Below are positions 33,655 to 61,788 of a stretch of DNA of 64,000 nucleotides, in pieces. The notes under the pieces are model-generated. The model was not told the origin of the DNA, made no database searches, and was given only the letters and a program-made list of their open reading frames with translations. Position numbers and translations under genes: made by a program. Source of the stretch: Morchella semilibera (Eukaryota > Ascomycota > Pezizomycetes > Pezizales > Morchellaceae); NCBI GenBank assembly GCA_009192285.1, contig CM018606.1, positions 1,230,081-1,294,080 on the forward strand, in the 5' to 3' direction. How positions within the stretch are numbered: position 1 is the first letter of the stretch; every line of letters starts with the position of its first letter.

Positions 33655-36600
33655 ATGCCCCCACGCAAAGTACCGGCTGCTGCCTCATTTATAGCGCCAT
33701 CAAAGCCGAATCCCCCTAAATTTCGAGCAAAGGCCAAAACCAACGAAGTTGAAGAAGAAGCGTCCAAACCTCAGGGAGATGCATTCGATGACTTGCTACA
33801 GACCTATTACAAAGGGAAACACTTGACAGACTCCATTAGCACTGCAGAAGATAAATGGACGCTACTACCTGCATTTTTAAAAGTAAAAGGGCTTGTTAAG
33901 CAGCATATTGACTCGTTCAACTTCTTCGTTGATGTGGAATTGAAGCAAATTGTGAGGGCGAATGAACGTGTGGTTAGTGATGTGGATCCGCAGTTCTTTT
34001 TGAGGTAAATATATACTAAATTTGGCTTTTGAGGTTTGTAAGGCTTGAACTCATATTAGCAACGCAGGTATACGGATATCCGAGTAGGTACACCTGAGCG
34101 ACTAGATATTCAAAGTAATGCCGAAATCACACCCAACGAGTGCCGATTACGCGATCTTACTTATGCCGCACCAATTTTCGTCGATGTTGAGTACAGTCGT
34201 GGAAAGCAGATTGTACGAAGGAGAGGGATGAACATCGGACGATTGCCAATTATGCTAAGAAGTAGCAAGTGTGTCTTATCAAATAAGAATGAATGGGAGA
34301 TGGCAAAGCTCAATGAATGTCCCTTGGACCCGGGAGGATATTTTGTTGTCAACGGTACAGAGAAGGTTATTCTTGTCCAGGAACAGCTGAGCAAGAACCG
34401 TATTATTGTTGAAAACGATCCGAAGAAAGGCTTTGTTCAAGCAACAGTTACTAGGTTAGTGAAATCCACACGTACCTACAGCCAAAAGCTAATTTACCAA
34501 AGCTCCACGCACGAGAGAAAATCAAAAACCCACGTTATCACCAAAAAAGGATGTATCTATCTTCGACACAACTCTATCATGGAAGATATGCCGATCGTTC
34601 TGGTCTTGAAGGCCATGGGTATACAGTCGGACCATGAGATCCTTCTACTCGTTGCCGGCACAGATATGGTGTACCAGGATAGCTTCTCGATTAATTTTGA
34701 AGAATGTTCAAAACTCAAAGTATTTACACAACAACAAGCTCTTGATTATCTTGGAGCTAGAGCCAAAAAAGCAAGAATGCCCCAGAATGCGATAAATCGA
34801 AGACCACCAGCTATGGAGGCCCTCGAAACCTTAGCGAATATTGTTTTGGCACATGTTCCCGTGGAGAACCTCAACTTCAGACCAAAAGCCTTGTACTTGG
34901 CTTTCACGACGAGACGGGTGCTAATGTGCATGACAAACCCAGCATTGGTGGACGATAGAGATTATGTCGGAAACAAACGTCTTGAGCTGTAGGTCGCCCC
35001 CACTTCCAACTACATCGGTCAGACGCTGACTAAACCTCTAGTGCTGGCCAGCTCCTGTCTCTGCTGTTTGAAGATTTGTTCAAAAAGCTCAATAACGACA
35101 TGAAGATGAACATTGATAAGATTCTCAAAAAACCCAGCCGAACTGAAGAGTTCGATGCAAGCACTTTATTAGCCACCGGCGCTAACCTTATCACACATGG
35201 AATGAATCGTGCCATCTCGACTGGTAACTGGTCTGTGAAACGTTTCAAGATGGAACGTGCTGGGGTCACACACGTTCTTAGTCGATTAAGTTATATCAGT
35301 GCTCTTGGTATGATGACGAGAATATCATCTCAATTCGAAAAGACTCGTAAGGTCTCAGGTCCTCGTGCACTTCAACCTTCTCAATTTGGTCTGTTGTGCC
35401 CATCAGATACGCCTGAAGGTGAAGCCTGTGGCTTGGTCAAAAATTTGGCTCTCATGACACACATCACAACAGACGACGAAGAAGAACCTATCAGGAAACT
35501 CGTATTTGCACTTGGTGCAGAAGATGCAACATTAGTAAGCGGGTATGAGCTTTACGCGCCAGGGGCGTATATTATATTCATCAACGGTACGGTCGTTGGT
35601 CTCACGAGGTATCCAGCAAAGTTCCTGCAAAACTTTAGGCAGTTGAGGCGGACGGGCAAGATTTCCGAGTTTGTTAGTATTTTCATCAATCAACATCATA
35701 ATGGTGTGCACATAGCGACAGATGGTGGGAGGATTTGTCGGCCATTGATCATTGTTGAGAATAAAAGGTGCAAGGTTACACCACGATACCTCAAGGTTTG
35801 TTCAAGTGCCAACTTTTGCTCGCTATCACTGATTTTATTATTAGTCGCTCGCAGCTGGTCGCATGAATTTTGAGGACTTCCTCAAGCGCGGTCTTGTTGA
35901 ATATGTCGATTGTAACGAAGAAAATGATGCGCACATTGCCATCTATGAACACGAAATCACTGAATCAACAACCCACCTAGAAATTGAGCCTTTCACCATA
36001 CTAGGTGCTGTTGCTGGTCTTATTCCATACCCTCACCACAATCAATCACCCCGTAACACTTATCAATGCGCTATGGGGAAGCAAGCCATTGGAGCTATCG
36101 CCTACAATCAATTTCTCAGAGTAGATACTCTCCTGTACCTTATGGTCTATCCGCAACAGCCTATGGTGAAAACAAGGACTATAGAATTGATCCAATATGA
36201 CAAGCTCCCTGCCGGACAGAGCGCTATTGTAGCTGTCATGAGTTATTCAGGATACGATATTGAGGATGCATTAGTGCTCAACAGAGCGTCGCTAGATAGG
36301 GGATTCGGAAGGTGTCAGGTGTTTAGGAAGTATTCAACGACATTAAAGAAATACCAGAATGGGACGGTCGACCGTATCGGCGATATAAAGCGGGAGCCAA
36401 GCCGAGACCCGGAGAACCTCGACGAAGTGGTCCCAATAAAAAAGCACGCTGCTCTCCAAGCGGATGGCCTTGCTGCAGTGGGAGAAAAGATATCAGCAGG
36501 CGAAGTCTACATCAACAAACAAGTCCCCACAAACACCTCAAATGCTCCTACACTCCTCAGTGATGGCCCTCCACTGGACGAATACAAAGACGCGCCTATG

Positions 36601-37520
36601 ACCTACAAACTTGCCGACCATGCCTACATCGACAAGATCCTCATCTCAACCGCAGAATCAGAACAAACCCTCATCAAGGTGCTCACCCGTCAAACTCGCC
36701 GCCCAGAACTCGGCGACAAGTTCTCCTCCCGCCACGGGCAAAAGGGTGTCTGCGGCATCATCGCCCGCCAAGAAGACATGCCATTCAACGACCTCGGCAT
36801 CATCCCCGATATTATCATGAACCCGCACGGTTTCCCCTCCCGCATGACAGTCGGAAAGATGATTGAGCTACTCGCCGGCAAGGCCGGCCTCATGTGTGGA
36901 AAGCTGCAGTACGGCACCGCGTTCGGGGGTAGCAAGGTCGACGACATGGCAAAGATCCTTGTCGACAGCGGCTTCAGCTACTCCGGAAAAGATTTTGTCA
37001 CCAGTGGCATCACGGGCGAGTCTTTGCAAGCATACATCTTTTTCGGCCCCATCTACTACCAGAAACTGAAGCACATGGTACAAGACAAGATGCACTCCCG
37101 CTCGCGAGGTCCCCGAGCCGTAAGCCCCCGGCCCTCCTCTCCCTCTTCCCAGAGCCCCTTAAACTAACACACACCCAGGTCCTTACTCGCCAACCCACAG
37201 AGGGTCGTTCCCGCGACGGTGGTCTCCGTCTCGGCGAGATGGAACGTGACTGCCTAATCGCCTACGGCGCCTCGCAGCTGCTCCTGGAGCGCCTAATGCT
37301 CTCGTCCGATGTTCACGAGATCGACCTGTGTGAGACGTGCGGCCTTATGGGGTACAGCAACTGGTGTACTACCTGCCAGTCTAGCAAGGGCGTCGTCAAG
37401 ATGAAGATCCCTTATGCCGCGAAGCTACTGGTGCAGGAACTACTGAGCATGAACGTTCTCGCCAGGATCAAGCTGGAGGATCTGTTTCCCTACGGGGAGG
37501 TGGATATGAAGGAGGCTTAG
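33655..37520 (+). CDS. RPC2: RNA polymerase III second-largest subunit (Rpc2/Ret1)
   Basis: This subunit forms the Pol III active-centre wall and lobe and, with Rpc1, synthesises tRNA, 5S and U6 RNA. Exons 33655-34004, 34068-34454, 34503-34988, 35042-35795, 35845-37119 and 37179-37520 join in phase to 1,197 residues. The Pol III-specific start [20 protein letters not shown] and [15 protein letters not shown] separates it from Rpb2 and Rpa135. Other blocks are [97 protein letters not shown] and the C-terminal zinc site [16 protein letters not shown]. The ATG at 33655 gives [12 protein letters not shown]; an in-frame TTG upstream was not used. The 48-nt intron at 34455-34502 is open in frame and easy to mistake for coding. 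RPC2 converges on the methyltransferase gene. Confidence 0.97.
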
Positions 37521-41794: not shown

Positions 41795-44700
41795 ATTTTT
41801 CTAGAGGGGGCAAGGCCGTGGCGGCCGAGGTGTTGGTAGAAGGTACACCATAAATATCAGATCTGCGCAAAAATTTACACAGGACTCAAATAATAGCAAA
41901 CTTATCGCATTCTATTTACGCTAACGAATGCAAACGACATATATAAACTTCTTTATAAGGAGAGAAATGAGAGTTTTTTCTTGTCATTTTCTTTCCATAT
42001 TTTGAGGTGATATAATATAAAATCGACAAATGTCTCCCTTTTCAGAAACGGTTAGTAGGATTGAGTCATGAGTGATCACTCGATGGTCTTGAGCACAAGA
42101 CACTAGTACGACGGCCTAAAAGAGTAATAGGAAAGTCTGACAACTGGGGGGACATCTGGCCAGTAAGTGTTTTAGAAAGGATGCCAAGTCTTACCAAGGC
42201 CTGCTCGCCGGGCTGACCATTACTTGCTGCACCATATGTGAGACCCCCATTATTATTCGCCTGCCCTAATCTCAGTTACTAAGCTGTTTGAGCATCCGAA
42301 TCAAGAGAGAGTCATGCAAACGCCTACTCCAATTGGTAACATCTTCTCACCTACCCAATCAGACCTAAAATTGCGGCGGCATCATTTTTTATAGATAACG
42401 CGGATGCTTATCACAAACCAAGATTTAAAGGCTGATACCTGGAGCTGAGGTGGAAGCATCCTGGGAGAGGTTAGTGCGGGGGGGGGGGTGTGAGCCGTTG
42501 TAGGCTTTGAGATTGTAAGTGAGAGATGGACTAGAAGTCAAGCTGATGCATCAGTGACGAAAATGAGGTACCTGAAGTAACACCAGGCGTTGACTGATAA
42601 ATCCCCGAATGACAACAATCCTCCTCAGGCTCTTCTCCACGTAGGGTGTGTATTATTTGATATGTCCAAGCTGTGATACATACCTAGCCTAAGTACATGT
42701 ACTAATGTGGGGATTGTTATATGGAATTCCCATAGTGCCATCCTTCTACATAAAGCCTCATAGACATACTTCGCACATCCTCTACCCTGAAGGAGAGTGC
42801 GGATTATAATGAGGCTTGTGTGATGGAAAGATTAGAATTGTGATGTATGTAACCTGTCAACTTAACATTTCAAGCCCTCAGCCCTAGCTCGGTGCGGCCG
42901 GGGTGGGTTGCCCTTGGCGTGATGCCTGGGCGGGTGTTTGAACTATGTAACTTGAAGAACTGCATGTACTTTTCCCCAGTGTTTTCGTTACCCCGCAATC
43001 CCCTCCTTCCAGCATTCAGCTAGTTTTGCTTGCCCTACCAACAACACTCAGGACAGATATCCACGGGAAAGGTTTACTCAACAATCAGTTAACGGCTAAG
43101 GGAGATCCCCATACAGGTGGGGCTTTCAGTCCAATCATAATAAATTAAAGATGACTCAGTATAGAGTACTACGCAAAAGTTATTACCCTGCTAACTGCGA
43201 TTCGGTAGACTATTTAGGGACTGGGTTAGTGAGTAGGGCCGAGTGATCTCTTATGATCTAGTCAACTATTCTCTCGGTGCAACAAATCACAAGGAAGTGA
43301 GCACCAGGCAATTTAGGCCCATGCTCCAAGTACTCTGTTTCTTTTTTCCCACAGCTTACACTACACGAAAACATGTGAAACACCCGACTTCTCCCGCGCC
43401 GGGTATGCGTCGAGCCGGATTTCCGGATATATGGATGGCTAGGCTGAGAATTTTGGGGTGATGGATTCTCTTCTCAACTGATACTTGTCTATATCTACGA
43501 AGCAGAAACCTGTGCAAATAACTCGTCCGCAGCAGCTTAGCATTACCAACACCCCCACAGAAAAATGTCCCAAGCCGTTCCTACAAGCTTTCGGCTGGAA
43601 TGATGAGTCTTTACAAGAAAACAGCAGGATTTTTCTACTCAGAAATGACCACACCTCTCCCAGCTCGCCTCATACTATCCACGAACCTGTCCTATAGAGT
43701 TGACTCAGGATTAACACCTTATTCATTTCTAGTCCAGAAGGTTCTGGACAGCACAGGTGGGTTACAAAATCAGTATTTACTAGAAATACCATCAAACATG
43801 AAGCTCAAACTAGTTACATTCTATTGACTCTTGATCTATCATAGATATGACCACCCGTCAGTCAAGACCGAAATTTGATATCGCAAGGCTCGCGTTGGAC
43901 AGGAACACAGAGGAGATGCATCATGCCATTTAGGGCTCCCACAAAATGACTGCGCTTCAACATCTAAAGTATCAAGATTTCAAGGCTTGGGCCAAGCCGG
44001 GCCAAGCCGGGCCATCCCTCGGCGGTGCCTCTTCGAGAGGTGTTACACCCCTTTGGGTGGCAGAACCAAAAGACCTCTGAAGAACTTGGTCTAGACTAGC
44101 AGATGATATTGCACCGTACATGCATTTTCCGAGTAGCCTAGCCTTTGTTTGACGGGGTGGGCAACAACACCTGCCTTCTCGTGGTTTATGGCGACCGGAT
44201 GCTGGAGCTGCATGGACTAGCGTCTTGCGCGCTTACCACCTCCAGACACCAGGTAGCCTCGAAATGTAGCGCCTGGGGGGGGGGGGATTGGGGCTGTGCT
44301 ATTCCCTCTACCCGAATGAGCCTTATGAGACTGGCAAAGAAACGAGCACCACGGAAACAGATAAAGCCCCGGCAAATATCTGCTCCTCTAGTCTAAAATC
44401 ACCAATCGCCCGAGCCGAGGAAACTTTGCACCATTATCGGCTGGTACCACATGCTGACGACCCTGTGCCTCTATGTGGGCAACAGAGAGTCTTCCTTTGT
44501 GGGCATATTTGAAGGTTTCTTCCGCGACCAGTCCAGGGAAACAGGTCTAGCCTATCTATTACACAAATTCCATTCCCTGGGAGAAATCAGGGCTATGGCT
44601 ATGCCCATATGTTAGAGAGGCCGGCGGTCCGCAGTCGATGACTCTGGACTGGCTAGGCTAAGATCGAGAGCTCTCAGGGGCGTTGTCTATATCAACTTGT

Positions 44701-46915
44701 TTAGTCAGGGCATGTGACAATAGGCTAGACAGAGGCACGGCGGAGCTTATTTACCTCTGGTTATCCATAGGAGTGATCGCCGCGAGACCGGCCATCAAGT
44801 TAATGCTGCAGAGCTGCGGACATAGAAGGGCCTAGGATTAGAAAAAGGAACTTCCATTCCTCCGTAATAGCCTTCCTCATCGCCGCTGGGGACAAGGTTG
44901 AGTTGTATTGTCTTTGTAAACTCCAATATGTATACAGTTGGTCAGGCGACTGCAGATCTTCGAGGGTATATTGTAGGACGGGCAGTGCTTGAGAGGCTTC
45001 TGATCATGGACGTTGTGTTGTAGCCTTGTTAGGAAGTGCTGCATTGGTGTAGTTTGAGAACAGTCCTGATAAGGCTGCAGAGCGCGCTGAGGCAGTAAAA
45101 CGGCGTGTCTCCTCGGTTTTTTTTTTTTTTTTTCCTATCCAAGAAATCACCGGTAGAGTAAATATGTTAAATGTGAAAAGGATGTGAAAGGATGTGAAAG
45201 GAAAAAAAAGAAGGGAAAAAAAAAACACCCCCCCGGTCTGCATGAAGTTCAGCTCGCCAGGGTTCTTGGGGGTTGTTTGTTACTAGGATGATTGGATCCG
45301 TAACTTGAGATGTCTAACCGTTGAATCAAGGATATGGCGTTCCTGGGTGCGTAAGCTTTCGCGTGGGTACGTGCGCGCTAGATTACGAAATCTCGTTACC
45401 ACCAAAACAAAACAAATGCCTGCTCATTCGAAAACTCCTCAGCCAGGTCATCGTTCCGCTTGTAGGGTCTCGATTATTTAAACAACCTCATGGGTGATCA
45501 TTACGGTAAGCGACTTGACAGCCGGGGTGCACTTCACCACGTTGTGCTTAGGAGCCAAGTGATTCGATCACCGTTACGAGCGTTAAGGGACACGAGTAAC
45601 TATGGATACATATCCCCCAAACTCTCCCTCGGGGATAAGATTCCCCCATATAATGTATCTCCCGCTTATATCAGAGAAAGTTGCAATAATACATGTGTCC
45701 AATCCGGTCGTTGTTACAGCAGGTATGCTACTAGGTTAATTTAGAAACACCAAAACACATAAGTAGCTTGCGTAATAAGAAATGTGGTTTTGTTACATGG
45801 TGGTATGTATATACTCTAAGACGCAAGAATACATGTACTTACATTTTGGCGTGACTTGAGGAGAAGTGTTCCTGCAGTAGGCAACCCTAGAGTACTGTAC
45901 TCCACTCTGGAGTGCACGACATCGCATACGCACCCGATCGCATTGCATTAGAGCCTCAATCCTTACCCCAACAATTTGAACTCAGCTGTACTCCATGTAG
46001 TCTCCTCAGGATACACGACATATATATAACACTGAGTAAGTACTCTAGATTAAATGCTCTAAGTGTACCATATGGTGCCGGAAAGTGATGCAACGTTTGA
46101 CCTAGAAACACGGAAAAATACTCAGAATCTCAGCTTTTAAGACAACACGATATTTGAAGGACATAGATATTTAGCCGGCCATATGTATGATGAGTCTCCA
46201 GAATAGATCTGCATGCCCTTCCCCAGTCATTGATTTGGGCCTTTAGCCCGCAAAACAACAACTTATGACAGGAGACAATAGTAAAAGGAGAGGCAAGGGC
46301 TATTCGTATTAACTCTTACCATAACTAGGATCTCCAGCTTCTAACTTACCATGGGTTTGCTCTAGGTTCTGCTAGCTAGCTTGGTTGTTCCCGGCACCCC
46401 CGGGTACATAATGTATGCGAATATAATCTTAATAACTCCCTTAAGCATAACAACGACTTTGTACCAAGAGTTAACATTAAAGCAGTAATATTATGTATCG
46501 TACCGTACGTGGCTACATGTACTGTCATACCAGCATATTATAAAGTCCATAACCCGAATAAACCAAATAACTAGCCCCGGCCCTAAGATGTAAAAAGAAG
46601 ACAAAAGAAATCTAATCAACCAATACCCTCTATTGTTCACCCGCCCATCCGCCATAGCCAAAACCGTTTTTCCAATATGGGAGAAAGCGCCGCAAAGAAA
46701 CCAACCGACACCCCAACGAAACCGAGAGATGATTAAAGTAACTAAAGCACCAAAGAAAAGAAAACAAAAACAAAAAGAAAGATATGCAATTTTGTCTTGT
46801 GCCCATCCTAGCCGCGAACGATTAACACCAACCACCACATAACCTTACGAAAGTCAGTAAATAACTACAAGAGCCCAGCAGGGGTGGGTAAACATACCAT
46901 AGATACCCAATGAAT
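41795..46915. other. Gene-poor region, 5.1 kb
   Basis: I see no gene that I can support. Features include a G-run at about 42478-42488, a G11-type run near 44275-44284, a T15 run near 45120 and several short tandem words such as GCCAAGCCGGGCCAAGCCGG at about 43990. TACATGTA occurs near 42697, 45831 and 46514. Frames up to about 115 residues exist but lack conserved motifs. A hydrophobic minus-strand frame at 46491-46838 lies in the AT-rich 3' flank of the small gene and is treated as non-coding. Confidence 0.4.
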
Positions 46916-47156
46916 CTATGAAGATTTGCTAAACCAGACTTTGGAGGAGTCTTTCGATGGTTGGTCAAGGTAGTTTTGCATCATTGGGCTGGTGGCGGAT
47001 TGATTGCTGCTAGATGATGGCTGAGTAGAGCCTAGTAAAGATGTTAGTATGGGAGGTTGAGCAATGAATCGTGGACGGCGTGGAGTAGTGATGCTTACTT
47101 GTTGTGGTGCCAGCAGGAGCGGCCTGGCCTTGGGTGGTATTTGGGGGTGACGGCAT
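46916..47156 (-). CDS. Small two-exon gene, member A of an unrecognised paralogous pair
   Basis: I do not recognise the family. Exons 47099-47156 and 46916-47031 flank a GTAAGC...TAG intron (67 nt) in phase 1 and encode 57 residues. The N-terminal half is Pro/Thr/Gln/Ser/Ala-rich (MPSPPNTTQGQAAPAGTTT, then SSTQPSSSSNQSATSP). The C-terminal half is more defined: MMQNYLDQPSKDSSKVWFSK. The gene at 53112-53375 has the same two-exon plan, the same intron phase and a similar end (MMERFLNQTPSEES). No signal peptide or membrane segment is seen. Promoter evidence is a TATATAAGG-like element about 120 bases upstream with a CT-rich leader. It is missed by ORF finders because exon 1 is only 58 nt. Confidence 0.55.
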
Positions 47157-47272
47157 GGTAGGAGAAGGATGGATTGAGGAGTAGAAGATGTTAAGGCGAA
47201 GTGAATCTTTAGATGTAGCTTGACTGGGCGGAGGGAGTCGAATGGTCGGGAGTCGAGAGGTGGGAGACGCCG

Positions 47273-47282
47273 TCCTTATATG
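47273..47282 (-). promoter_or_regulatory. TATA element of small gene A
   Basis: GCATATAAGG on the minus strand lies about 117-126 bases before the ATG at 47156. It is followed by a C/T-rich leader (CTCCCACCTCTCGACTCCC and CGACTCCCTCCGCCCAG), the layout of strong fungal promoters. Confidence 0.55.
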
Positions 47283-50200
47283 CTTGCCTAGTCTTCACTT
47301 CCAATGATGTGCAAATTGGCACGGCTGAGATATTATGCACGGTGGTGAAGGAAGCTGTTGAAGGGAGGAAGGAGGCGACCGGGTTCTGGGTCGTTAGATA
47401 TGACGCCTAAACGGTTACTCAAGTATCGATAGTAGAGACGGTTTGGTGAATGGCATGGAGATATGGCGTAGGGCTCCTTATTTAACTTCAAGAGCGTAGG
47501 CAAGTAGCACATTGGTGGATCAGTCAATGTATGCACTGCTTGAGGTGCGGGTGCAAGTGGGTGCTGCTGGATTCTGGGCAAGACAGGGGAAAATGGTAGA
47601 CAGCCCCACGGCGGTTCATCATTTCCGCAGCCGTAGATGTGTATGGTCCGGATTGCCTCGTAGCATCGAAAAGTCACCTCTTCATCACAACTCCGTTCCG
47701 GGTCGATTGCGCCAACAAAGGCCCACTCAACCTAGCCCGCGCCTCCACCATCTCCCAACACCGGAAACACAATCGATAGGACACCGCCATAGACCAATCT
47801 AGGCAGGTGAGGAAGCACCGAAGGCGTTAAGGAACCGAAGCGTGGAGTAGGGCTGGTGGTAAGACGCCTCTTGGATGTTGTTGGGGGCAGCAGGGATTGA
47901 CGACACTGACAACTGCGTGTTCTCTCGGCCTTCTCGCAACTAGGCGGGAAAGCTGCGGTCTCAATCCGCGAGAGCGCGCTCCCGAGTGCGCACGATTATC
48001 GGGGACCTGTGTTTCGGCATTCTAGTTTAGGTGACGTCTAGTTAGTGACATCCTAAGTAACTTATTGCGTGTATGTAGAGAGATACATATGTAATCTCAG
48101 CCTCAAGCTTAAGGATAGTATACGACCAGGTAGAGTGAAGGAATAAGGTAAACAATAACGTGTGCGTGAAGAGGGGTAGTGAGGTGGAATAAGAGGCGGT
48201 TAGCTGTGTTATTGTTTCTTGGCAAGCAAGGTATGCTGGCACTCTAGGGCGCAGAAGGTCATTGTCAATCGATATATCATGGCGTCTTGACGAACCCAAA
48301 CCCCGAAAGCCACACGCAGTCCAGAGATCAAAAGCTCTTTTGTAATATTGTAATTTTATATACTTCACCCTGCACCACCCACAACGTGCAGGCCTATCCC
48401 TTGGACGTATGACATTTATAAACCTGCGAACTTCATAGCACATTCGGGGTATTCTAGAGACTACTCTGCTTACCCGGACTTCTTTGTGTTAATGCATGAG
48501 AGAGATTCTCCAAAGGATAGGCCTAGGAATAGAAACAGGCACCCTAGTAAATACAATATTACCTCATATAAGGTCTTATATCGGTAGACTCTCATGTAGA
48601 ACTACTCGAGGCTTGGGGTGCTGATATTCGTTCCGAATCTATATAAGGAATGTGAACGGCTTCATCTTGCGTTATGAAAATGGTTTATTTTTGGACTAGT
48701 GTATTGTCGATCTCGGGTCGTGCAGGTTCTATACATATACTGATAATTTAGGAGCTCTATATATACTATACACCAATCCCAAAAGTACTAGTGGTAAACA
48801 ATTAATTATTCATACCTCATTCACACACATAACGTCACACTCCGAGTTGACGATTACCGTCGTGGCTTTCAATTATGGAATGTGTATGTAGCCACTTGAT
48901 TCGGAACCCCTATGCGAAAGAAGTTTCGCCAGCTGTGTTCCTGTGGAAAAGTGTTTACCGACGTTATGACTCAAGACGTTTTTTGTGAGGCTTGAAACAG
49001 TAGGGTTAGTGCAAATGTTAGAAAATGTTCTCAGGCATTTACTTCATTAACTGATTCAAATCATCAACCTAATATAACTATATGAATGTACTTTAATTTG
49101 TTTAAAGGGATCGTCGCACTAGCTCGATTAATCTTGGCCGCACACCGCACCTGCAAGACATAAGGCTGTAAGTAAGAGTAATGTGATAGCAATGCGGGCC
49201 GACCCGAGCCCAAGCACCGTGGTTGACCGTGCCTGCTCCCGTTGGCTTGAAGGCGCGAGCTTTAAGATTGTTGCTTATCGTGTTGCACCGCCACACCTTC
49301 CTCCAAGCTAAGGTTGCAGATCGGAGATCTAAAGATCTGGTCGCAATTTAGAGGTGGGGCGGGGCAGGGCCTGGGGAATGGGTCACATCACACAAACGAA
49401 TAAGGAGTACATTGAATCAATGTTCTTTAGTTCACGTCACCTGTAGCAGATGGCGATTTCCCAACACTACTATTAATGAAAGTTCATCCGGACTCATACG
49501 CTGCAACGACTCAGGAGAAACACCTCCCTTAAGACTATGGAAATGCGATTAACCTGAGGGTTTGATCACCGATTCGGCACGGCACTTGGCTCCGCAGAAA
49601 GATTAAGGGGGAAAAAATGCATCTGCGTCAAGAATATTGGGCTATTAGGTAGTTCTAGGGGTAGTTGTATGTATTCAGGTAGTACTTAAACATATGAAGT
49701 ACCTAGGTTATAAGGTAAGAATTGTTCATAAACGAGCAGAAGATGTGAGTACTAACACGCACTTACACTACATGTCCATCCATGTGCTTTAGGCAACTAC
49801 AACTTGTACATTTAAAAAAATTTTCAACGAAGACCAAATACATTTTGTAGCACCAGCTAAAGCGCCTTGTTTGCCATACATGTAAAGTATAAAACATACA
49901 TGTACATGTATCTTGCATGCATATACGAATGATACAGTATGAAAAAATAGGATGAAATCACTACGGAATTTAAAGACAAATACCGAATTAAACCGGCATT
50001 AGAGGAAGTGTACCGTATTCTTACCGCATTTCTAGCGTATCAACGGGAATACCGTAGTGATCCCACCCCTCTTTTTGGTACTGTATTCTATTGTAAATTA
50101 GGAGGTTGACGTCGTCTATCAGATGCAGTATACGTAATGCGCATGTAGTACAAGCAACTGCTGCTATTTACTAATGTACAGCGGGTTTCTAGATCACTAC

Positions 50201-53111
50201 GTACATGTAGGTACACATGTACATGTAGTTTCACCTTTTATCTCCGAAACAGAATCAGAGTACTATATGTGCCTATCAACCCAAGTCTTCCCTTAATAAG
50301 AAAAACGATATACCGCCGCCGACGTCTCAAGGGGCAAATCGCAAAATAGATTGAGGAATGCATATTACTTGCTTCTCCTCGGTCTAGATTTTCCCTCACT
50401 CATGTTACTCACAATCACCGTTATAGCGCTGGCTAGTTCAGCTGAAAGCTAGGGACCAAAGTTCGGCCAGGTTGATATCCGAGACACTCACGTTATTCGG
50501 TGGGTAGAATTATGAAATGCGCACACAAGTCTTCATGGGGGCCATTAGAGCTGGGGCTTGTCCCGTTCTGGGTCTGGGGAAATGTAGGCTCCTCCCGCTC
50601 CTTGAATTTGGATTGAAGTCAGACTATAGCAGTAGCTACATGTAACACGAGGTTTAACTTGCTTACTCTATATTATATTTATATTAACACACCACTACAT
50701 GTAGGTCTACATGCACTTTATAGCACTCTTTTACATACCGTATGTATAGAGGGGAAGATCAATCGTGTATCTACCTGGTTTTCTATCCGTACGCTAATGC
50801 CAGGCTTACAGATGCATATTTTTTTTCTTGGACAGCTAGAATTATAATCCCCAAAATATGTCCATATGGCTAAATACAACTTTATTGGGTAGGTACGGAG
50901 GGTGGGGGGCGCTGGCTGTTCATAGGGAGTTACTATTGCTCACTAGGACCTAGTAATATGTCCCTCCCTGGCCCCATATCTTGCTAGAGAACTTTTGTTT
51001 GATTCCTGTGCGAACTTTTGGGAGTGAGGCCATCTTGACGTTGGCGTTAACACGGGTTTAGATGTCATGACATGATGAACTATACAAATCGTATCACGAT
51101 ATGTGTTTGCCAATGAGGGATATCCGGTTGGGGGTTGCTAGGTGTCATACCAGGCAATGTTGCAGAGTCTTTTGAATATCACAACGTCCCACAATCTCAC
51201 AAGCTAGACCCCCCACATTATCTAACGTGTCACGTTAAAGAATGATTCTCAAGATCTCGCCAATCTAATGTTGGTTTCCAATTAATGGTTCCCGATTTAT
51301 CCGATGTCGCACCGAAAAAGAATCTTACAGAACCGGATTTCTGATGTGGAGAAGCCAATCATAACACCTGTTTACGAGTCAATTTCTCCTAAACTTGCCC
51401 TGAGATGGGCATGTTAGACAGAGAGCTAGCAGGGAAACCCATGACTTTCAAAGTCGCTCTCTTTCCTGTGCAAAAATTGATTCATCAATTAGAGGACCAT
51501 ACAGAAAAAAGAGTGTGAGTACGTACTGCATGGGCGTTGTCGCTCATCTCTCATCATGTTATGGTGCTGTGCATAGACTTATTCCAAGATTCGCTTCCTT
51601 ATAGGATCTAGATTTAAATTCTCGGATATCGGATATCTTGGGGGCGCTTGTGCGCCTCGCGTGACGGCTCGTTCCGTGCAAATCAGCCTTCATTAATTCG
51701 CGAGGGTATAAGGCAATAGTTAGTGATTTATGAACTCTGTAGGAGCGAGCGAGTCCGAGCAACTACATACATGTGTACATGTATGTACCCCTAATTCACT
51801 TAGGCAAAGCCTCGAGAATGAATGATCTGCAAACCGTACCTACATTAGTACATGTATGTACTCCGGCCACGGCTCCGCTTGAGACTGACGGGGTTACTCC
51901 GTCAACAAGTAAAAGCACCAACGGAGGAACCTCCGTCCATGGAATAAAACGCAACAGCTATCCCAGGAACCTCTGTATAATGCAGAAGCTTATTCTTCTT
52001 CTCATTGGCGATCCTGGCGAGCGTGAACAAACCATCACGCCAAACCATCATTAACCCCCCCCCACATGACATTTGGCAGACCACCGTACAGCGTTGGGGT
52101 GCGGCGCGCGACCCAACTCCTTAACATCGCTGCAGGGCTACCTCTGCAGGCGGCGCACAGCATCTACGATCTTTGTGCAGTTGTCTATGGCGCTAGAAGG
52201 AGAAGAAAGAGAAGGAGAAAAAGAAAAGAGACAGAGACGAAACCGTTGAGTTCTAAGGTGCGAACTTACTTACTCACACTATCGTGTTTAAATATAGTAA
52301 CTACATATACATTGTTTGACAAGAATTCGACTACCGCAAAATCTCGAGTTATGTTATTTGGGGGTTGCCAAGGCCACCCAATAAACTACATCTAGTAAAA
52401 GAGAGCTCTAATGGAGGAAGTATGTAGGCAACAACGAAATTGTTGGGCTTCTTACTCCGAAACTACATTACTAGGCAGCGAAAAAAAGACTTGGGCCAAG
52501 GCTCTGTCGACATATTTCCGATATGTACACCCATAGAAGGACTCAACGCTAGCTCTTGTGAAACCAAGCTTATTGACATCGGACTACATGCAATAAGTAA
52601 TATTGGCTACTAGCCAGCGGAATGATATCATCAAAATTTGAAGAGTCGAATTACAGCCAGGCGCGCAGAGGTAATAAAAATGAAATTTTGGCGAGGTGGC
52701 CACGGTAGTAGAGCAGACGTTACATGATCAACCCTTTAAAATCAACGCGACAAAAAAAAGTAAAGAAAGAAAGAATGTCTCAAGCTAGAGCCGCCCCACC
52801 ATCCACCCCCCTTCCCCCCCTCCCCCCCCCCCACAAATCAAACCGACCCACCCAGGCCCTTCACGCCAGTGAGCTCATATCTGGCGTCATGAGTTCAAGG
52901 TCGCAGTAATCTTCCGCACATGTTGCAGCGCTGCGGCGTTCAACTAGGTACCCCTTGCACGTCGGAAGAGGATCCGGCTTTTATAATGCCGCCGTTATCG
53001 TAGTCTATAAACGAAAGTTAGACGAGTCAATCGGAGGGCAACTTGCGAAATTAAATACCTTGAATAGAACAGTGTCCACGCGGTTTAGAAAGGAAGAAAA
53101 GGAGCATTCAA
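47283..53111. other. Gene-poor region, 5.8 kb, rich in TACATGTA
   Basis: No supported gene. It contains about nine exact TACATGTA palindromes (49880-51855 is the densest part) and an imperfect fold-back stretch at 49956-50062 (ends ATCACTACGG and CCGTAGTGAT). There is also a C-rich low-complexity run at about 52793-52832. Short frames show no conserved motif. Confidence 0.4.
49956..50062. repeat. Possible small fold-back element
   Basis: Ends ATCACTACGGAATT and AATACCGTAGTGAT are inverted over about 13 bases with one change, and the interior (about 80 bases) is rich in TACCG words. TA flanks are not visible, so it may be a decayed MITE or chance. Confidence 0.35.
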
Positions 53112-53375
53112 TTACTTCCAGTTCCTTACAACGGCGGCCACAGATTCCTCGCTGGGAGTCTGGTTAAGGAATCGCTCCATCATCACGCCCACACGGGCTG
53201 GTTGAGCGCCAGTCGCACCTATATTTCTGTTAAGGCCTGGTTTTGGGGGATAAAGGGCGAATTATATACCTGCAGTACCTCCGGCGACTGTGTTGGGTGC
53301 TTGAGTACTAGCTTGGCCTTGAGCACCGCTGCTCGGCGTCTGCTGACCCCCAGGGGGAACCTTGGTGTCCGTCAT
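53112..53375 (-). CDS. Small two-exon gene, member B of an unrecognised paralogous pair
   Basis: Exons 53270-53375 and 53112-53218 flank a GTATAT...TAG intron (51 nt) in phase 1 and encode 70 residues. The N-terminal part is Gly/Gln/Ser/Thr/Pro-rich (MTDTKVPPGGQQTPSSGAQG, then QASTQAPNTVAGGTAGATGA). The C-terminal part is QPARVGVMMERFLNQTPSEE followed by SVAAVVRNWK. The block MMxx[FY]L[DN]Q-x(0,1)-PSxxS is shared with the gene at 46916-47156. A TATA-like element (TCTTATAAGA, about 53599-53608) and a CA/CT-rich leader lie upstream. No secretion signal or membrane segment is seen. It lies in a gene-poor, TACATGTA-rich region. Function unknown. Confidence 0.55.
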
Positions 53376-56300
53376 TGCTGAAATAAAGGATGCAGCGGAA
53401 AATTAATATGATAGATAAGTCTTAAGCAGTACTACTGAGAGCAAAGAAGAAGGAGGGTAGAGTAGCTCAAAGGAGTTTTGGCTTTTTGTGTTGTAAAGCA
53501 ATATAAGAGGTGTTTATTGGTTGCAAGAAGGGTACTGATGAGGTTACTGTGCTGTTGGTGATGGTTGAAGATTTGAAGTAACTTGGGGAGGTCTGTCTTC
53601 TTATAAGAACCAGGACGAGAGATATCTCTCTTCAGTCTCGTGGGCGTGTGGATCATTAATTTCATCCCTGCATGTATCGAGCCTGAGCAGGCTCGCACGA
53701 GTGCTTCGCCAGTTTCTGAATCTAGACGTTATTTGCTAACGTGTTCACTGAGACGTTCTCTGGAGTATCGGGACGGGCAGATCTGCGAGGCGGGCCTTTG
53801 GATGCCCTCGAACCCGACTCAACTGGCTTTGTGATACTGTGGAATAATAACATGGATCGGAAAATTACAGGTAGTGTGTCTCAGCACTGACCAGGAATTA
53901 AAAGATGCTCCTCTACTCTCACCACCTGTAGTCTAATCTACATGCAGTCTTAGTTTCCGGATTCCTATTCTACATACCACGTGGGATATGTGCCACATAC
54001 ATACTAAACTTACTTGCGCGCCTGCAAGGTACGGTAAAGCTTGAATCTGAGCTGAACACACCATGTATTTACATGTAATTACAACCTTCTAGAAGATATC
54101 ATCGCCTGAGCGACTGCCACACAAAGTACACACCATATAATGCATGTATCTGCACCCCAGTTGCTAATATAACACACATATCTAAGATACATATAGTATA
54201 CATATTTTATGTCGTTGACATGACTTAAGTTAGGGTACGTATACTGAGGACAAGGCTGTCTTTGGTCGAGCTGACCACATCATCTCGGGGAATTCTACTG
54301 TCTCTTTTTGTGAGGCGAGAATGGAAGGGTGTTTAGTCTGTCGTAAAAAAAAAAAAACACCCTAGGCCAAATCCTGATATTCTCAGTTACTAGTGTCGAC
54401 TCTGTCCCTGGAGTCCGAAGGGGGGGATGAACGTATACATACATGTAGTTTAGGCTGAACAGACTATCATGCATCTAGCCGCTGTTAGTGTAACCACATG
54501 ATGCAACTATTGGCCTTGCTTTTGTAAACAAATCCAACGGAAAATCGTACCTGCGCCACAGGTTTGGATAAATATTTCTAAGGAAAGGACGGATTTAAAC
54601 TAATTGGCAAAGCAATTTCGCCAGCCCCAATTCTTAGGGCTGACCTGTGTGATAACGGGTTGGCCGATATCTAAGGCTGACTATCTATTATCAGTATGTT
54701 CAAGAAAGTTTATGCCAAGGAGATCTAGTCGAAAGACTCATTGCAAGGGTATGTGGCTCATGCATGGTTTGTGTACTCAAACATTGTATAGCATCTTTTG
54801 TGGGCAACTTGTGCGCATAGAATTGTAAACCCATATTTCGCGAAACCACAATAATGTGATCCTATCTCTTTTAGCGTAAGGCAGATTGGATAATTGACGT
54901 TTCGTACGAGTCCTCCGTGTAGCTTAACCTAATAAGATAGCCAGCTGAATGTACGTGTTTCACATGTGACCATGAGAACTCTGAGGATAATGTTCAGCAG
55001 GGCGGAACGGGGTCGATGATCCGCAATGCATAAACGACTGGCTAGTATTACTAATTTGCAGTGAGATATCGGTGTATGTAATAAGTAAGTGGGCCATTGG
55101 TTGTAGGGACCCTTACAAGTCCTGCTTAATACATATTAAACAGGTGACATGGTCTGGTACAAGATACTGAATCCTCGAGTGATACAGTATGATGTTGTGG
55201 AAAACTGTAAAATACGTAGACCAGCTTGCCCATCAACGAGCACGGCCCATCAGCGAGCGTTGCCTGCTATTTTTCCCGTCGCAACGGATGCTACCCACCA
55301 AACTTTGGGTGTACGCTCGTTGAGGGGCCGCGCTCTCTGGTGGGCAAGCTAGTCTACATCCGACGAGTTTCTCGTCTTTTGACCAAGGGTGCTTTTGGGA
55401 AAATGAGAGATATGATTGTCGATATGGCCGATGTCTTAATTGATTGATTCGCCCTTATACAGTATATCAGTTCCAATTCTGTGGACATGGCAAGCTAAGG
55501 GAAGAGGACAGGGCCAATGGATAGGGGGGGGATCACCTCAGTATAGTATGAGCCAATGTATCTGCCGTATTGCATTCATCACAGCTGTGGCAATTAATTT
55601 GTGTCTCTTCGAGGATTCTAAACGTACGGGATCGCCTCTCTGCATGAATTCGTACTGATCCTATCTGTAGGTGTAACATATATGAGTTCATGTAGCTCAC
55701 AGTCTTTATTCGTTATGGCCATGTATGCCAGGGTGTTAAGTGAGGGGAAACAGAATGAAGGAAAGCAGAAGTAATCCATTTTACACCTATGTGGTGTGCG
55801 TAAGCTAGAGCGGCTGATGATATTTTGGCTTGGCACCTTTATTGGATATGCGTAAGTCAATCGGGTCTCCATGTGCATGTACTTAGTTGTGTATGTACTA
55901 TATGCGATGTGGGGATGGAGATTTCCGTGTGAGATGTGTGGCCGCAATGTAAAGGCACAGTGAGGAATATAATTGGTTTCAAATCGTATATAGCTCGAGG
56001 ATCGTTTTATTTAATGCATCACTGAAGCTGATATCGATTGGTTTACCTATCGACAAAAGTACATGTAGCTACATGTAGTTTAACTTGGTGTACTTATTGA
56101 TGCTTAATAAATTCTCACTAGAGTACTTGCCAAATAAAAAGGTCTGTTGATTTTTTTAGGTGCGGTTGCCACGCAAAATATCAACACTTTAAAAATTGGC
56201 GAGTAGTAGAGGATAGAGGCTCAGCTTTGACCAAGTTCTGCTTTATGTATGTCGGTGTGTGCGTCCTATCAGTTGAAGATGTGGCATATAATTAATTATA

Positions 56301-58197
56301 GTTATGATATGTTTCTGGTCCGCATATACCGTTACCGAGGCTCTGCGATACATAACCAGCTGTCTAAAAGCTAAGATATGATATGCGCATGCAACTGCGG
56401 GCTCTAAAATCTGAATTGTGTGGTCTTCGATCTAAAGCGATTTAGCTGTATAGATAGAATCAAAGTGGCAAAAAAACATTCCAAACTACATGTATGTATG
56501 GGTACGGGCCACGGCTGCAGGAACGGTATTGATATCATGATCTACACTTGAATTTGAATTCTCTGGCGTGTGGGGTAGTGAAATTAGCATAACGCCTTAC
56601 AGGAACTCCCACCCCAAAAAAATTTTCCCATACCTACATAAGATATAATTTTGCCCTTGTGGCGGGGTCCGATTTAATCCTGAGGCCATGCAACCTTTGG
56701 GTCGTAAATATGTGCCGACGTGAACCACCCCCCCCCCCCCCCCGCAGGGCCTTGATGAACTCTAGGTCCACACGATCTGCTCCGAGGAGATCCTAGCGCC
56801 ATCTCCGTCCTAACCGGCCTGCCCGAGGGACTAAGCCCTACCCTATCGCATCATTGGGTGGCCATTGTACGAGGCATAAATAGGATGATCTATCCAAAGG
56901 GCCTGATATGTATAGTAGCTTAGGTAACTCATGTAGCTTATCTAGATTGGGCGGCTCATGCCTAATACTTTGAGTGGTCGAGATCAAATAGTATTTTCCA
57001 TGGTTAGTAGCGAGGCATAGAAGATGGGCTCAGGAACTGTAAGAAAATTAGTACATATTCTGCCATAATGAACGAGCGTGATAGGTATTTGTTCAGAACA
57101 GGCTCACAATCCTGGGATTTCCAAAAATTACGCATGTTCCCCACGGTGCGTATAGAAATTTCGGTCAATTTTCAAACATTAAGATCAGTCAGTTGAAGAA
57201 GATATCACAAGGTTACTAGTCCCCACACCCTTGGGCCCGGGCCCTCCGGCCGACACCATTCTTCATATCACGAGACATGAAAGCTGAAACGTTTTTCGCT
57301 GTCCTGGAAGGCATGCACCGGCCGTGGCTCCCATAGTAAGATCTTTCCCCCCAGTACAAGAGGGTCGGTTACCTATGCTGGGTCAATGGGTGCTTTTTAG
57401 ATCTACTCATCGATGGTATCAGGCATTACCGCAACATCTCATAAGTAATTCCAGATAACCATGCGCGCTTACTGCCTATTGGATAAGTGACAGACTAAAA
57501 CACTCCTTCTCATAGAGTAGGGGGGGCTGTGAGGAGTGGGAGACCGGGACAAAGTCGCATCGGTTGTAATTATCATCGATCAGTCAATGAAATCACAGAA
57601 GGAAACGTGAAACAAAAGATGCAAGTACGTCTTATATGTAGGTTCAGCTGGAATAAAGAGCGAAAGGGAATTCCGAGCCCTTGCCTATGGTACCGGTATG
57701 CCTGTTATACCATGTCAAACTAGATCCTCAAACAGGTTTCACCAATATCACACGTAACCTCTTCTCACTTTCTAACTGCTTATACCTCGAAAGAAATATT
57801 TTTATCTAGACCGAACGAATATTTCTAGATAGGGTTTAGAACAAGTATACGTATATACACATGTACCTCTTCAACTCCCCCTTTTTTTTGAAACAAATCG
57901 AGCTAATCTCTGCCTTGTATCTAGTCTAGATCTTTGCTTCACAAATCACCAGAAAAGCACAGCACCAAGCTCGACACCTCAATCAACCATGCGACCCAAA
58001 ATTAGATAAACCTCGGCGAAAACTATTCAGCAGAGTCATAGTAACACAACATCCGCAGCAATATACCTATTTCCGATGAACTTCACCCCCGTGATCTATA
58101 CATATAGTATTGACTCAGGGCTCGAACATATCGACCCCAGCATCCATGAGCCTGATATCTGCATACTCAGTTAGTAGATTGGAGATTATTATGGGGC
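53376..58197. other. Gene-poor region, about 4.6 kb excluding the gene B promoter
   Basis: No gene is supported. It carries TACATGTA palindromes near 54067, 54438, 56064 (two, adjacent) and 56489, a long C run at about 56729-56743 and an A12 tract near 54345. Frames are short and AT-rich without conserved motifs. Confidence 0.4.
53599..53608 (-). promoter_or_regulatory. TATA element candidate of small gene B
   Basis: TCTTATAAGA, self-complementary, lies about 225 bases before the ATG at 53375. It is followed on the minus strand by a CA-rich leader (ATCTTCAACCATCACCAACA) and CTACTCTACCCTCCTTCTTC, similar in style to gene A. Confidence 0.4.
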
Positions 58198-58269
58198 TTG
58201 CAGAGTGGAACCAGTACCGTAAAAAAGGTTTCTTCAATTACTGAGAGCTGCGTTGGGGCATCTGGCATC

Positions 58270-59520
58270 ACAATTCCGATGACCCCTGATGCATACTGCC
58301 AGGCTCGAGAAACCCACTCCCCCGCCCTTCAGAACCTACAATCTTGCTCTGCAACAGCCCCCATCACTAAACCAGGGATATCTGATATCGTAACCTTGTT
58401 AAGGTCTGGTGCATGCCACCAGGCTCGAGCCGGTCTATGTTGAGGTCCTACCTAACCAGGCCCGGGTAAACACGTTTCTCAACCTCCTGAGATTAATGAC
58501 GGTATTTCGCCGTAGGCCCTCCTCAAAGCCTGGGGTACACGGCATCATGATTCCCAGAACCCTTAATTCATGCTGCCAGGCTCGAGCGGGTTCACCTCTA
58601 GATACCGATTGACCGGCCCGGGAAAAATCCCTCTTGGACGGTGATGATGCTCTGCAACAGTCTCTCCCACTAAAACAGAGCATCTGACACCATGTCTTCG
58701 GTAAATCTAGAGTATGCTGCCAGGCTCGAGCTCATCTACCGGGGTTACCGTCCAGGGCTCGATGTGCAGGCAGAATCCCTAGGCTCGAGCTTAAAGCAAC
58801 GACCTACCAGCGGAACCCCTGCAAAATCGTAGGTAAATAATCCTAATCCCCAAAAAAGGCTCTCGGTGTTCGCAAATATTCTTACACAAATGTAAGGCTC
58901 GAGCTTAAAGTAACGGCTTACCAGCCGAGCCACTACCCAGTTGTGGACAAGCGACTATAATCTCCGGGGAAGTAATGTTCGTAGGGTCTTCCTTGGGGGT
59001 AGCCCGATGCCACGAACCAGCCCTCGTGTTGTCGTGTGCTGTATGTCAGGCTCGAGTCTGGCTGTTGGCCTCGGCCCGTGAACGTTGATTAGGCTGAGGA
59101 GTCTGAAGAAACCGACCCACTGCATGGACGGGACGTTATCCGTTACACTAACCCAGTAATACCTCCTCCGAACATTTTTTTTTCTTGTTGCTGTCATTAG
59201 AGGCTTCCATCAGCTTCAAAGTGTAAATTATAAAGGAAACTCCTGCAGGCGCAGACTGAGAAATACTCGAGGACAGAATATTAAGCATTAAGTATTTATC
59301 AGAAAGTGACATGTCAGCTGCAGAAGTAGACGCAACTTGAATTTCCCTCTCACTTCAAGTCTCTATTGTCGTGTCTTGCTGTTTGTTGTCAGGCTCGAGG
59401 GGGTGGCCCGAGTACCTGGTATGGCCCGTGCCTACATGTAATGCATACATCCCCATCCATATATACATCATGCGTGGAGGTTTCAGGTCCGTCCGTCAGG
59501 CTCGACTAGCCGCCCGGTTG
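58270..59520 (-). repeat. Degenerate tandem array with CAGGCTCGAG core
   Basis: The core CAGGCTCGAG (or AGGCTCGA) recurs near 58292, 58423, 58577, 58722, 58784, 58895, 59048, 59391 and 59498, at irregular spacings of about 60-340 bases. Sequences around some cores are also related: TGCTCTGCAACAG followed by TCTCTCCCACTAAAACAGAG or a variant near 58330 and 58650, and CTGGTAAGCCGTTACTTTAA versus CTGGTAGGTCGTTGCTTTAA (minus strand) near 58900 and 58800. Read on the minus strand, CTCGAGCC resembles a Pol III B box and TGGTTTAGTGATGG or TGGCTCGGCTGG resembles an A box. No tRNA cloverleaf can be folded convincingly. Confidence 0.55.
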
Positions 59521-59856
59521 AGGTCTCAGGTGATTAAGAGACATAGTTTTACCGTAAATTAAACGAAAATAAAAATTACGAATCAAAGTCGTGACAGAAT
59601 CGCGTGTTTTCGAATATTTGTTGATATAGTTTGTTGAGTACGTCTGATCTCAACCAATGATGTCGAGTGAGAATTTATGATGACCAACAAGAGCCTCATC
59701 TACTCGGCCCCCCAACAGACCGGGTAACCATAACCCTAATCCAACTTCGCCTCTGCCAACCGCCAAGTCAACCCTAACCCACCAAACATCAACAACCAAT
59801 CCAGCCCGCCGCGCATCAAGAATAACCTCACAAAAAAGACAAGAAGCAAACGCAAG

Positions 59857-60261
59857 ATGCAGCCGACAGCCGCCCTCCACCGCTCCATCCGCCGCCTGGC
59901 ACTGACAACAAAAATGGTCAATGGCGGCTTCTACAAGGGAACGCGCACGGGGAGCATGGGTACCCACACCAGGCGCGGAGGGTATGTCATCGACTACAAG
60001 AAGGTTAGGACGTATGTCGTGCCCGATTTGGAGGGGTTTAAGGTGAGCTTTTCTGTTCCACGGGAATGAGCGGATTGGGATTGGGGGAGTGGAGTTGTGA
60101 TGTGGGTATGACGAGGGCTAATTGGTGTTTTGTGACAGTTGACGCCGTTTGTAACGAGGAGGATGATGCCGACGGTGGGCGCGGAGAGGTACAGTGGGAG
60201 TAGCCCGGGAAGTGGGGAGCTGTATCTGGAGAGGTGGAAGAGGGAGAACGGGGTTAATTAA
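59857..60261 (+). CDS. MRPL27: Mitochondrial large-subunit ribosomal protein mL41 (yeast MRPL27)
   Basis: mL41 is a mitochondria-specific protein of the 54S subunit. Exons 59857-60042 and 60139-60261 join in phase 0 to 102 residues. The start MQPTAALHRSIRRLALTTK is a basic amphipathic presequence-like segment. The family core is GGFYKGTRTGSMGTHTRRGG, then YVIDYKKVRTYVVPDLEGFK, with LTPFVTRR at the start of exon 2. It ends LERWKRENGVN. A short GTGAGC...CAG intron of 96 nt separates the exons. It converges on MRP51, whose 3' end lies 289 bases away. Confidence 0.93.
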
Positions 60262-60549
60262 TGGGTGTAGAAGGAGGAGGAGAGGACTGGGGTGTAAATA
60301 TTGGAGTATAATAAAAAAACGTTTCGATATGCGTATATATAGTGTTCTTATTCTGGGTTGTAGATTATGCTTTGGGTGGTGGATGTTTGATGGCGGAGGT
60401 GTATATACAGATTCTAATGAAGAAGGAATTTATGTACGATGCAGGACTTGCAGCAGATAGATACAGAGGAAGAAGAAGAAGAAGAAGAAGAAGAAGTATT
60501 TACAATGATATTTTTATTCTTTATTTATTTTTTCTTCCTCTGCTGCTGT
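60262..60549. other. Convergent intergenic region with GAAGAAGAA repeat
   Basis: The 0.29 kb between the two mitoribosomal genes contains AATAAAAAAACG just past mL41 and a (GAA)n run at about 60472-60497 next to T-rich sequence, plausible 3' end signals for both strands. Confidence 0.35.
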
Positions 60550-61788
60550 TCAGTACCTCTTGTACGGATTCAGCAAGTCCATGATCGCCTCCGTATGGTC
60601 TCCTCCACTCCTTCTCGGTACCGGCGGCGAACCTCCCATGCTTGAACTTTCGTTCAATTCTGGGTTAGCATCATACAATGATTCCCACCTCCTGTTCCCC
60701 TGCCCGAACCCCCTCAACAACGACGCCGCATCTCCCGCCCTCCCCTGGACGCCATACGCGCCCCTCAGCGACCCATCCTCGTTCACCGTATCAACATCCA
60801 GCAGCACCCGGCCAAGCGCATCCAAGCGCGCCTTGTCCGGAAGATACTTCCGAGTGTGCTGCCTGTTGTTGTACAGCTTCAGCGGGTTGTCCATACGCAT
60901 GGCATCAGTGCTCTTGGCCACAAAGCCTCCAACACCGATCATGGTCCCATAAACCCCAGAGTGGTTCAGGTACCGCCCCGTGACGGCCTTAGGTACCGTT
61001 TGTAGGCCCTCGAACGGGTCGTTCCTGACCGGCGCCGAGGACCGCGTATAGTGCAGCCCTCCGGACGGATGCGTCCTATGCGGGCGTGTCAGTGTCGGCA
61101 GGTCCAAGAACGCCACCACCAGCCGGCCCAGCAGGAACGCGTCCGCACGGAGCGCCATCAGGTCGACCTCACTTGGCTTCGCCTCCTCGCCCGTAGCAGG
61201 AACAGCATTCGGCTGTCCTTCGGGCTGGCTGGCAAACTTGCGCTGGTTCTTTGCGACGAAGGCCAAGAACTCGGCGCGGCGCGGCCTGACGGACTCCTTG
61301 AGGTAGCGCTTGAATTCGCCCGCGGGCATGTCGGGGATGTAGGGACCCTCGTAGCGCCAGCGGTACTTCTCCTTGTACTCGCCGGGCGCAAATTCAAAGA
61401 CGGTGTGGCGCCCAGAGTACATGCTTGCCAGAGCGGAGGGGTTAAGGGTGGGCCCGCGCAGTATCGGGACGTCCATCTCTTGCCACTTCTTGAGCGTGAG
61501 GACGTCGTCGGCGGCGGACTCGTAGGTCGTAAAGTGCTCGAGCGTGTCGAGCTTTGTATATCGCAGGAATGGGTAGCGGGTCTTCGTGGGGAGGTCACGC
61601 TTGAGGCCCCAGTTGCCGCGGGCGTGGGAGGAGGCGGGGGTAGTGATAGACTGAATAGTTGGGTGTGGAGCTATGTCAGGGTTGCTCATGAAGTACGAGG
61701 GCGGGGGCGGGACGGGAGCGGGCATAGAGATCAGACGTGATCTCCGGAGAAGGCTGGCACCGGGGGAGAAGCGTTTGGCGGTGGCCAT
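60550..61788 (-). CDS. MRP51: Mitochondrial small-subunit ribosomal protein Mrp51 (bS1m-like)
   Basis: Mrp51 is a fungal mitoribosomal 37S protein linked to initiation on mitochondrial mRNA leaders. The 412-residue single-exon protein has the family N-terminus: SPGASLLRRSRLISMPAPVP, then SITTPASSHARGNWGLKRDL and TLEHFTTYESAADDVLTLKK, then WQEMDVPI. The conserved TPxSSxxRGxWGLKR block is the strongest mark. The middle holds FAPGEYKEKYRWRYEGPYIP and DMPAGEFKRYLKES; the C-terminal part has AVTGRYLNHSGVYGTMIGVG, GFVAKSTDAMRMDNPLKLYN and DVDTVNEDGSLRGAYGVQGR. It ends in NPYKRY. No intron is present. It is transcribed towards mL41. Confidence 0.9.
   Translation of the reverse strand: MATAKRFSPGASLLRRSRLISMPAPVPPPPSYFMSNPDIAPHPTIQSITTPASSHARGNWGLKRDLPTKTRYPFLRYTKLDTLEHFTTYESAADDVLTLKKWQEMDVPILRGPTLNPSALASMYSGRHTVFEFAPGEYKEKYRWRYEGPYIPDMPAGEFKRYLKESVRPRRAEFLAFVAKNQRKFASQPEGQPNAVPATGEEAKPSEVDLMALRADAFLLGRLVVAFLDLPTLTRPHRTHPSGGLHYTRSSAPVRNDPFEGLQTVPKAVTGRYLNHSGVYGTMIGVGGFVAKSTDAMRMDNPLKLYNNRQHTRKYLPDKARLDALGRVLLDVDTVNEDGSLRGAYGVQGRAGDAASLLRGFGQGNRRWESLYDANPELNESSSMGGSPPVPRRSGGDHTEAIMDLLNPYKRY

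Follow-up and report, generated by a model that had tools for sequence, protein, structure and literature searches.

Two small genes in a gene-poor stretch

The window, by which we mean the whole 64,000-nucleotide stretch that was analysed (positions 1230081-1294080 of contig C4), carries two candidate genes, here called A and B, on its reverse strand. The two-exon models and the splice junctions proposed in an earlier sequence-only reading of this DNA (47099/47031 and 53270/53218) were reproduced exactly, and both models bear out that the genes share their strand and a phase 1 intron. The features are as follows, all on the reverse strand:

46916-47031, coding exon 2 of gene A with the C-terminal block, ending ...MMQNYLDQPSKDSSKVWFSKSS; stop at 46916-46918
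47032-47098, phase 1 intron of gene A, 67 bases; donor GTAAGC, branch-like TACTAAC, acceptor TAG
47099-47156, coding exon 1 of gene A, ATG at 47156; MPSPPNTTQGQAAPAGTTT and the first base of the next codon
47157-47281, putative core promoter and CT-rich leader of gene A; TATAAG starts 124 bases before the ATG (consensus match only)
53112-53218, coding exon 2 of gene B with the C-terminal block, ending ...MMERFLNQTPSEESVAAVVRNWK; stop at 53112-53114
53219-53269, phase 1 intron of gene B, 51 bases; donor GTATAT, branch-like CTTAAC, acceptor TAG
53270-53375, coding exon 1 of gene B, ATG at 53375
53376-53606, putative core promoter and CT-rich leader of gene B; TATAAG starts 230 bases before the ATG (consensus match only)

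The spliced model of gene A yields a product of 57 aa, MPSPPNTTQGQAAPAGTTTSSTQPSSSSNQSATSPMMQNYLDQPSKDSSKVWFSKSS, and that of gene B a product of 70 aa, MTDTKVPPGGQQTPSSGAQGQASTQAPNTVAGGTAGATGAQPARVGVMMERFLNQTPSEESVAAVVRNWK.

On the left, the neighbourhood contains exons of the second-largest subunit of RNA polymerase (34228-37164), a methyltransferase frame and an M19 dipeptidase exon ending near 41791. On the right, a 412-aa frame at 60550-61788 encodes the mitochondrial ribosomal protein Mrp51 (PF11709, E 1.5e-76) and matches the PDB chain 6yw5_AA (137.7 bits), which we take to be from the Neurospora mitoribosome, far better than 5mrc_AA (41.1 bits), presumably from that of yeast. The DNA is thus fungal, and its source is probably a filamentous ascomycete. 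Between about 41791 and 59.7 kb, a span of about 18 kb, no conserved gene was recognised by a codon-score scan and Pfam. Eleven of the 164 segments scoring above 9 bits in the window start within 41900-60500; besides exon 2 of gene B (53133-53219, 9.2 bits), they comprise three segments that start beyond 59.7 kb and a remainder of short, unassigned ones. Two of the open frames of at least 100 aa in the gap were scanned with Pfam and gave no match. The region had been described as a gene desert without conserved genes; a gene-poor stretch is indeed present, but as Pfam covered two gap frames, "desert" is only likely. Rfam and tRNA searches of the window found nothing. Three further segments were noted in the window: an open 988-aa Gypsy-type polyprotein frame with reverse transcriptase, RNase H, H2C2 and integrase core domains (27110-30076, forward strand), a segment to the left of the Mrp51 gene with a coding-like score of 25.7 bits (59740-60045, forward strand), and the leader region of gene A at 47222-47407, which scores like coding sequence on either strand (12.6 and 9.1 bits in the scan) and may be a GC-rich island or an unrecognised exon.

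Coding potential of A and B

As a training set for the codon score, 35 long frames with 18,875 codons were taken from the 264 kb around the locus, among them the Gypsy-type frame. Gene B scored 16.7 bits in its frame against at most 9.8 in the other five, a value matched by none of the 553 nearby open frames of equal length, which, as overlapping windows, are not independent of each other. Exon 2 of B has the best in-frame score of the pair, and B is well supported as a coding gene by its codon statistics. Gene A scored 2.3 bits in its own frame, less than the 4.3 bits of two of the other five frames, and 13 of 1,299 open frames nearby reached its score. Codon statistics thus hardly help A; what backs it as coding is the clean intron together with the resemblance to B.

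Relation of A and B

Alignment of the two products by MAFFT gave 15 identical columns, including Q-G-Q-A and M-M...L-Q-P-S..S; exon 1 contributes the shared QGQA, and exon 2 the shared MM..[FY]L[DN]Q(x)PS..S. When B was shuffled 20,000 times, the global A-B score was reached by 15 shuffles for the whole proteins and by 80 for exon 2, and the local score by 66 and 38 shuffles, respectively; for the last 24 residues the figure was 23 of 20,000. The likeness is weak, yet above shuffles, and its significance is only moderate, because a reader of 64 kb could pick among many models. In the whole genome (56.8 Mb, 23 contigs), a strict DNA pattern of the block, ATGATGNNNNNNTWYYTNRAYCAR, has three matches, namely in A, in B and at a third site with an in-frame stop, and its reversed control has none. 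Likewise, three relaxed peptide patterns matched only A and B within the 264 kb. This rarity is partly post hoc, as A and B themselves were the basis of the patterns. The C-terminal block that the two genes had been said to share is thus confirmed, being above shuffles and nearly unique in the genome as a strict DNA pattern.

Protein searches of the genome (tblastn) with A or B at E <= 10 did not find the other member, and 3-kb stretches around A and around B gave no DNA match with each other at E <= 1, which rules out a recent tandem duplication. If A and B are related at all, they would therefore be old duplicates.

A probable third member

The relaxed pattern M..[FY]L.Q.P[ST] occurs at 17 places in the genome, compared with 9 for the control. 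One match is B and another one lies in an open frame on a different contig, here called gene C:

Contig C2, L036:1357-1569, gene C, an ATG-initiated open frame of 70 aa that begins MPEEYTPP and ends MKRYLEQKPSEDGVVVYTKSHE

The tail of gene C reads ...SISEAMKRYLEQKPSEDGVVVYTKSHE-stop, and its length of 70 aa is the same as that of B. The pattern [FY]L.Q.P[ST]E[DE] matched only B and C, but is by itself no proof of C, since the control also gave one match. Outside the pattern columns, the match of C to B was reached at 132 of 527,858 six-frame positions of the 264 kb, B itself included, and 6 of these 132 also stop at the same place as C. Multiplied by the 16 other pattern matches, this amounts to a chance of 0.004 for C, or of 0.0002 with the same stop place. 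Over the last 24 residues, none of 20,000 shuffles reached the B-C score and one reached the A-C score; for local alignments of the whole proteins the counts were 1 and 163 of 20,000, respectively. The best A-C alignment is ungapped with PS shifted by one position, and a one-residue gap brings the three tails into agreement. In each of A, B and C, 14 residues lie from the proline of PS to the C-terminus. The codon score of C was 4.5 bits in frame; two further frames, scored for comparison, gave -5.9 and -5.2. Taken together, gene C is a probable third member of the family, and the third copy that the sequence-only reading had called for is found in it.

The genome search with the tail of C did not find A and B at E <= 10. 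A hybrid query found B and C together, but neither A nor any fourth copy, and an A-like hybrid query recovered only A. The DNA surrounding B and C shared only three matches of 13-16 bases (E 0.32).

Gene C reads from its ATG to the stop with no intron in the coding part, and its charged N-terminal part is rich in Lys, Glu and Asn. Hence, neither the two-exon plan nor the N-terminal half rich in Pro, Gly, Gln, Ser and Thr, both of which had been regarded as shared traits, holds for C, and the tail alone is left as the family trait. A possible intron was seen by eye in the leader of C (L036:1270-1345; AAG, GTATAT...CTGAC...CAG, before the ATG at 1357).

Other pattern matches were discarded as copies. 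Five near-identical MMKEYF.Q.PS matches (L033, L034, L035, L039, L043) seem to be out-of-frame readings of a Gypsy-type RNase H repeat, as we presume from comparison by eye with the consensus. Four (L037, L040, L048, L049) have a stop inside the pattern, and six (L041, L042, L044-L047) are open frames in which the rest of the tail is missing. The A-type relaxed pattern gave 16 matches compared with 8 in the control; one is A, and the other 15 may include a further A-type copy. Weak matches of A (L006-L008, E 2.5-4.4) showed no block in the frames examined. Some matches occurred at nearly equal positions with the same translations on C9 and C10 (167127/167175 and 1772359/1772074, including L006/L007) and on C21 and C22 (142749/142904, including L048/L049), which suggests that the two contigs of each pair are duplicates or alternative haplotypes.

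Promoters and expression

Both genes had been credited with a TATA-like element and a CT/CA-rich leader. TATAAG and a CT-rich leader are found at A and B, with C+T fractions of 0.61 and 0.63, respectively, over the 150 bases that precede the ATG (mean 0.50, sd 0.048), but TATA[AT][AG] is common nearby, at 2.1 per kb per strand, and the leader of gene C, with TATAAA at -228, is not CT-rich (0.52). The strong expression proposed from these elements is not borne out: the codon score of A falls below that of two other frames, and C lacks the CT-rich leader.

Database and literature searches

None of the three proteins had a Pfam match above the cut-off. A resembled PLCG EF-hand motif 2 (PF23583) at 13.1 bits (E 0.13; curated cut-off 27 bits), and residues 27-63 of C resembled GCR1_C (PF12550) at 14.9 bits (E 0.033; curated cut-off 23 bits), a family that A and B did not match at E <= 10. 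PDB searches with A, B, C and a three-row profile found no relative, the only match being the DpHF7 filament at E 0.55 for C. Pattern stretches of B in viral contigs (90) and prokaryote genomes (427) yielded none that was confirmed, and literature searches, including one for peptide strings of the block, found nothing on it among the papers listed. That the block belongs to no known family, as had been suspected, is in line with the Pfam and PDB results. The A-B-C family is absent from all libraries searched, although its kind, a small orphan gene family, is familiar. Small orphan genes of this sort occur in the Pezizomycetes, a class to which the present fungus may also belong. A report on Pyronema confluens describes orphan genes as encoding proteins that are short, as are A, B and C, and without homologues in other groups; more than 40% of them are differentially expressed and more than 20% upregulated in sexual development, and their median expression is lower, contrary to the strong expression proposed for the present locus (PMC3778014).

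Protein character and weighing of explanations

All three products are hydrophilic (GRAVY -1.01 for A, -0.49 for B and -1.53 for C), which makes N-terminal disorder likely. Their N-terminal parts are low in charge and rich in Pro, Gln, Ser and Thr in A and B, and charged in C. The parts before the tail differ in length and composition among the three, and conservation is limited to the tail. By the Kyte-Doolittle scale, no hydrophobic stretch resembling a secretion signal exists at any of the three N-termini; the highest 15-residue mean starting in the first 26 positions was -0.51 in A, 0.29 in B and -1.17 in C. Secretion is therefore unlikely, and the role in host interaction raised earlier as a possibility is not supported. 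That A, B and C are secreted host-interaction proteins is indeed highly improbable: apart from small size and a gene-poor setting nothing points this way, cysteines are missing from A and B and number one in C, and unconventional secretion would be required. Improbable as well, though less so, is a role as hydrophilin-like protectants against desiccation or stress. Hydrophilins are by definition above 6% glycine, and a conserved C-terminal block of the present type is not known among their features. The three proteins are like them in being small, hydrophilic and probably disordered, and B is also rich in glycine (9 of 70 residues), but A (2 of 57) and C (3 of 70) fall below this threshold in spite of their strong hydrophilicity, and what is conserved is a specific tail and not a composition.

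It is also unlikely that no protein family exists, the open frames having arisen by chance or the models being spurious ones within non-coding transcripts. The gene-poor region, the very short frames, the lack of Pfam and PDB relatives and the noise of the relaxed patterns (17 versus 9 and 16 versus 8 in the controls) would fit such a reading; the codon score of B (0 of 553), the B-C tail (0 of 20,000 shuffles) and the equal end of three proteins speak against it. A more serious, if still rather doubtful, alternative is that B and C are true relatives and that A has its block by coincidence, being either a small gene without kinship to them or a model that arose by chance. A has the weakest codon statistics of the three, its block is one residue short, searches with it miss B and C, its ungapped alignment with C is out of register at PS, and its local score with B, reached by 66 of 20,000 shuffles, is not overwhelming given the many possible models per window. 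On the other hand, A has the cleanest intron, with a TACTAAC branch, the strand and intron phase of B, and QGQA in exon 1 and the 14-residue end, both as in B. On balance we slightly favour A and B being real genes that form, with C, a small family of old origin and rapid divergence, with proteins of 57-70 aa, confined to this fungus and perhaps its relatives.

A tentative role for the conserved tail

In such a family, the N-terminal two thirds would be hydrophilic, mostly disordered and free to change, and the conserved part would be the last 21-23 residues, M-x-[RN]-[FY]-L-[DNE]-Q-(x)-P-S-[EK]-[DE]-[SG] and, after it, a short tail that contains hydrophobic residues. The probable structural elements of this segment are a short helix, a P-S-x-x turn and an extended tail. 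We infer that it probably serves as a docking peptide for a partner inside the cell, as would be expected of a short tail that keeps its spacing to the C-terminus and is preceded by disordered sequence without common origin. Expression may be conditional, for example in sexual development, a setting that we weakly favour as the most likely one by analogy with the Pyronema orphan genes. It is possible, though tentative, that A, B and C represent new lineage-specific intracellular disordered proteins in which the docking peptide M.[RN][FY]L[DNE]Q(x)PS[EK][DE][SG] is the sole conserved part, acting as regulators that bring different, interchangeable N-terminal parts to one shared partner.

If this is true, low-charge N-terminal parts, as in A and B, and charged ones, as in C, would be interchangeable on the same partner. 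In other respects, the three genes would be one more orphan family of a sort that is numerous in fungal genomes. Annotation easily overlooks small lineage-specific genes, which are difficult to separate from chance frames, and a tail of 21-23 residues in three otherwise dissimilar proteins would provide a handle, as a profile or as a peptide bait, for tests of translation and binding.
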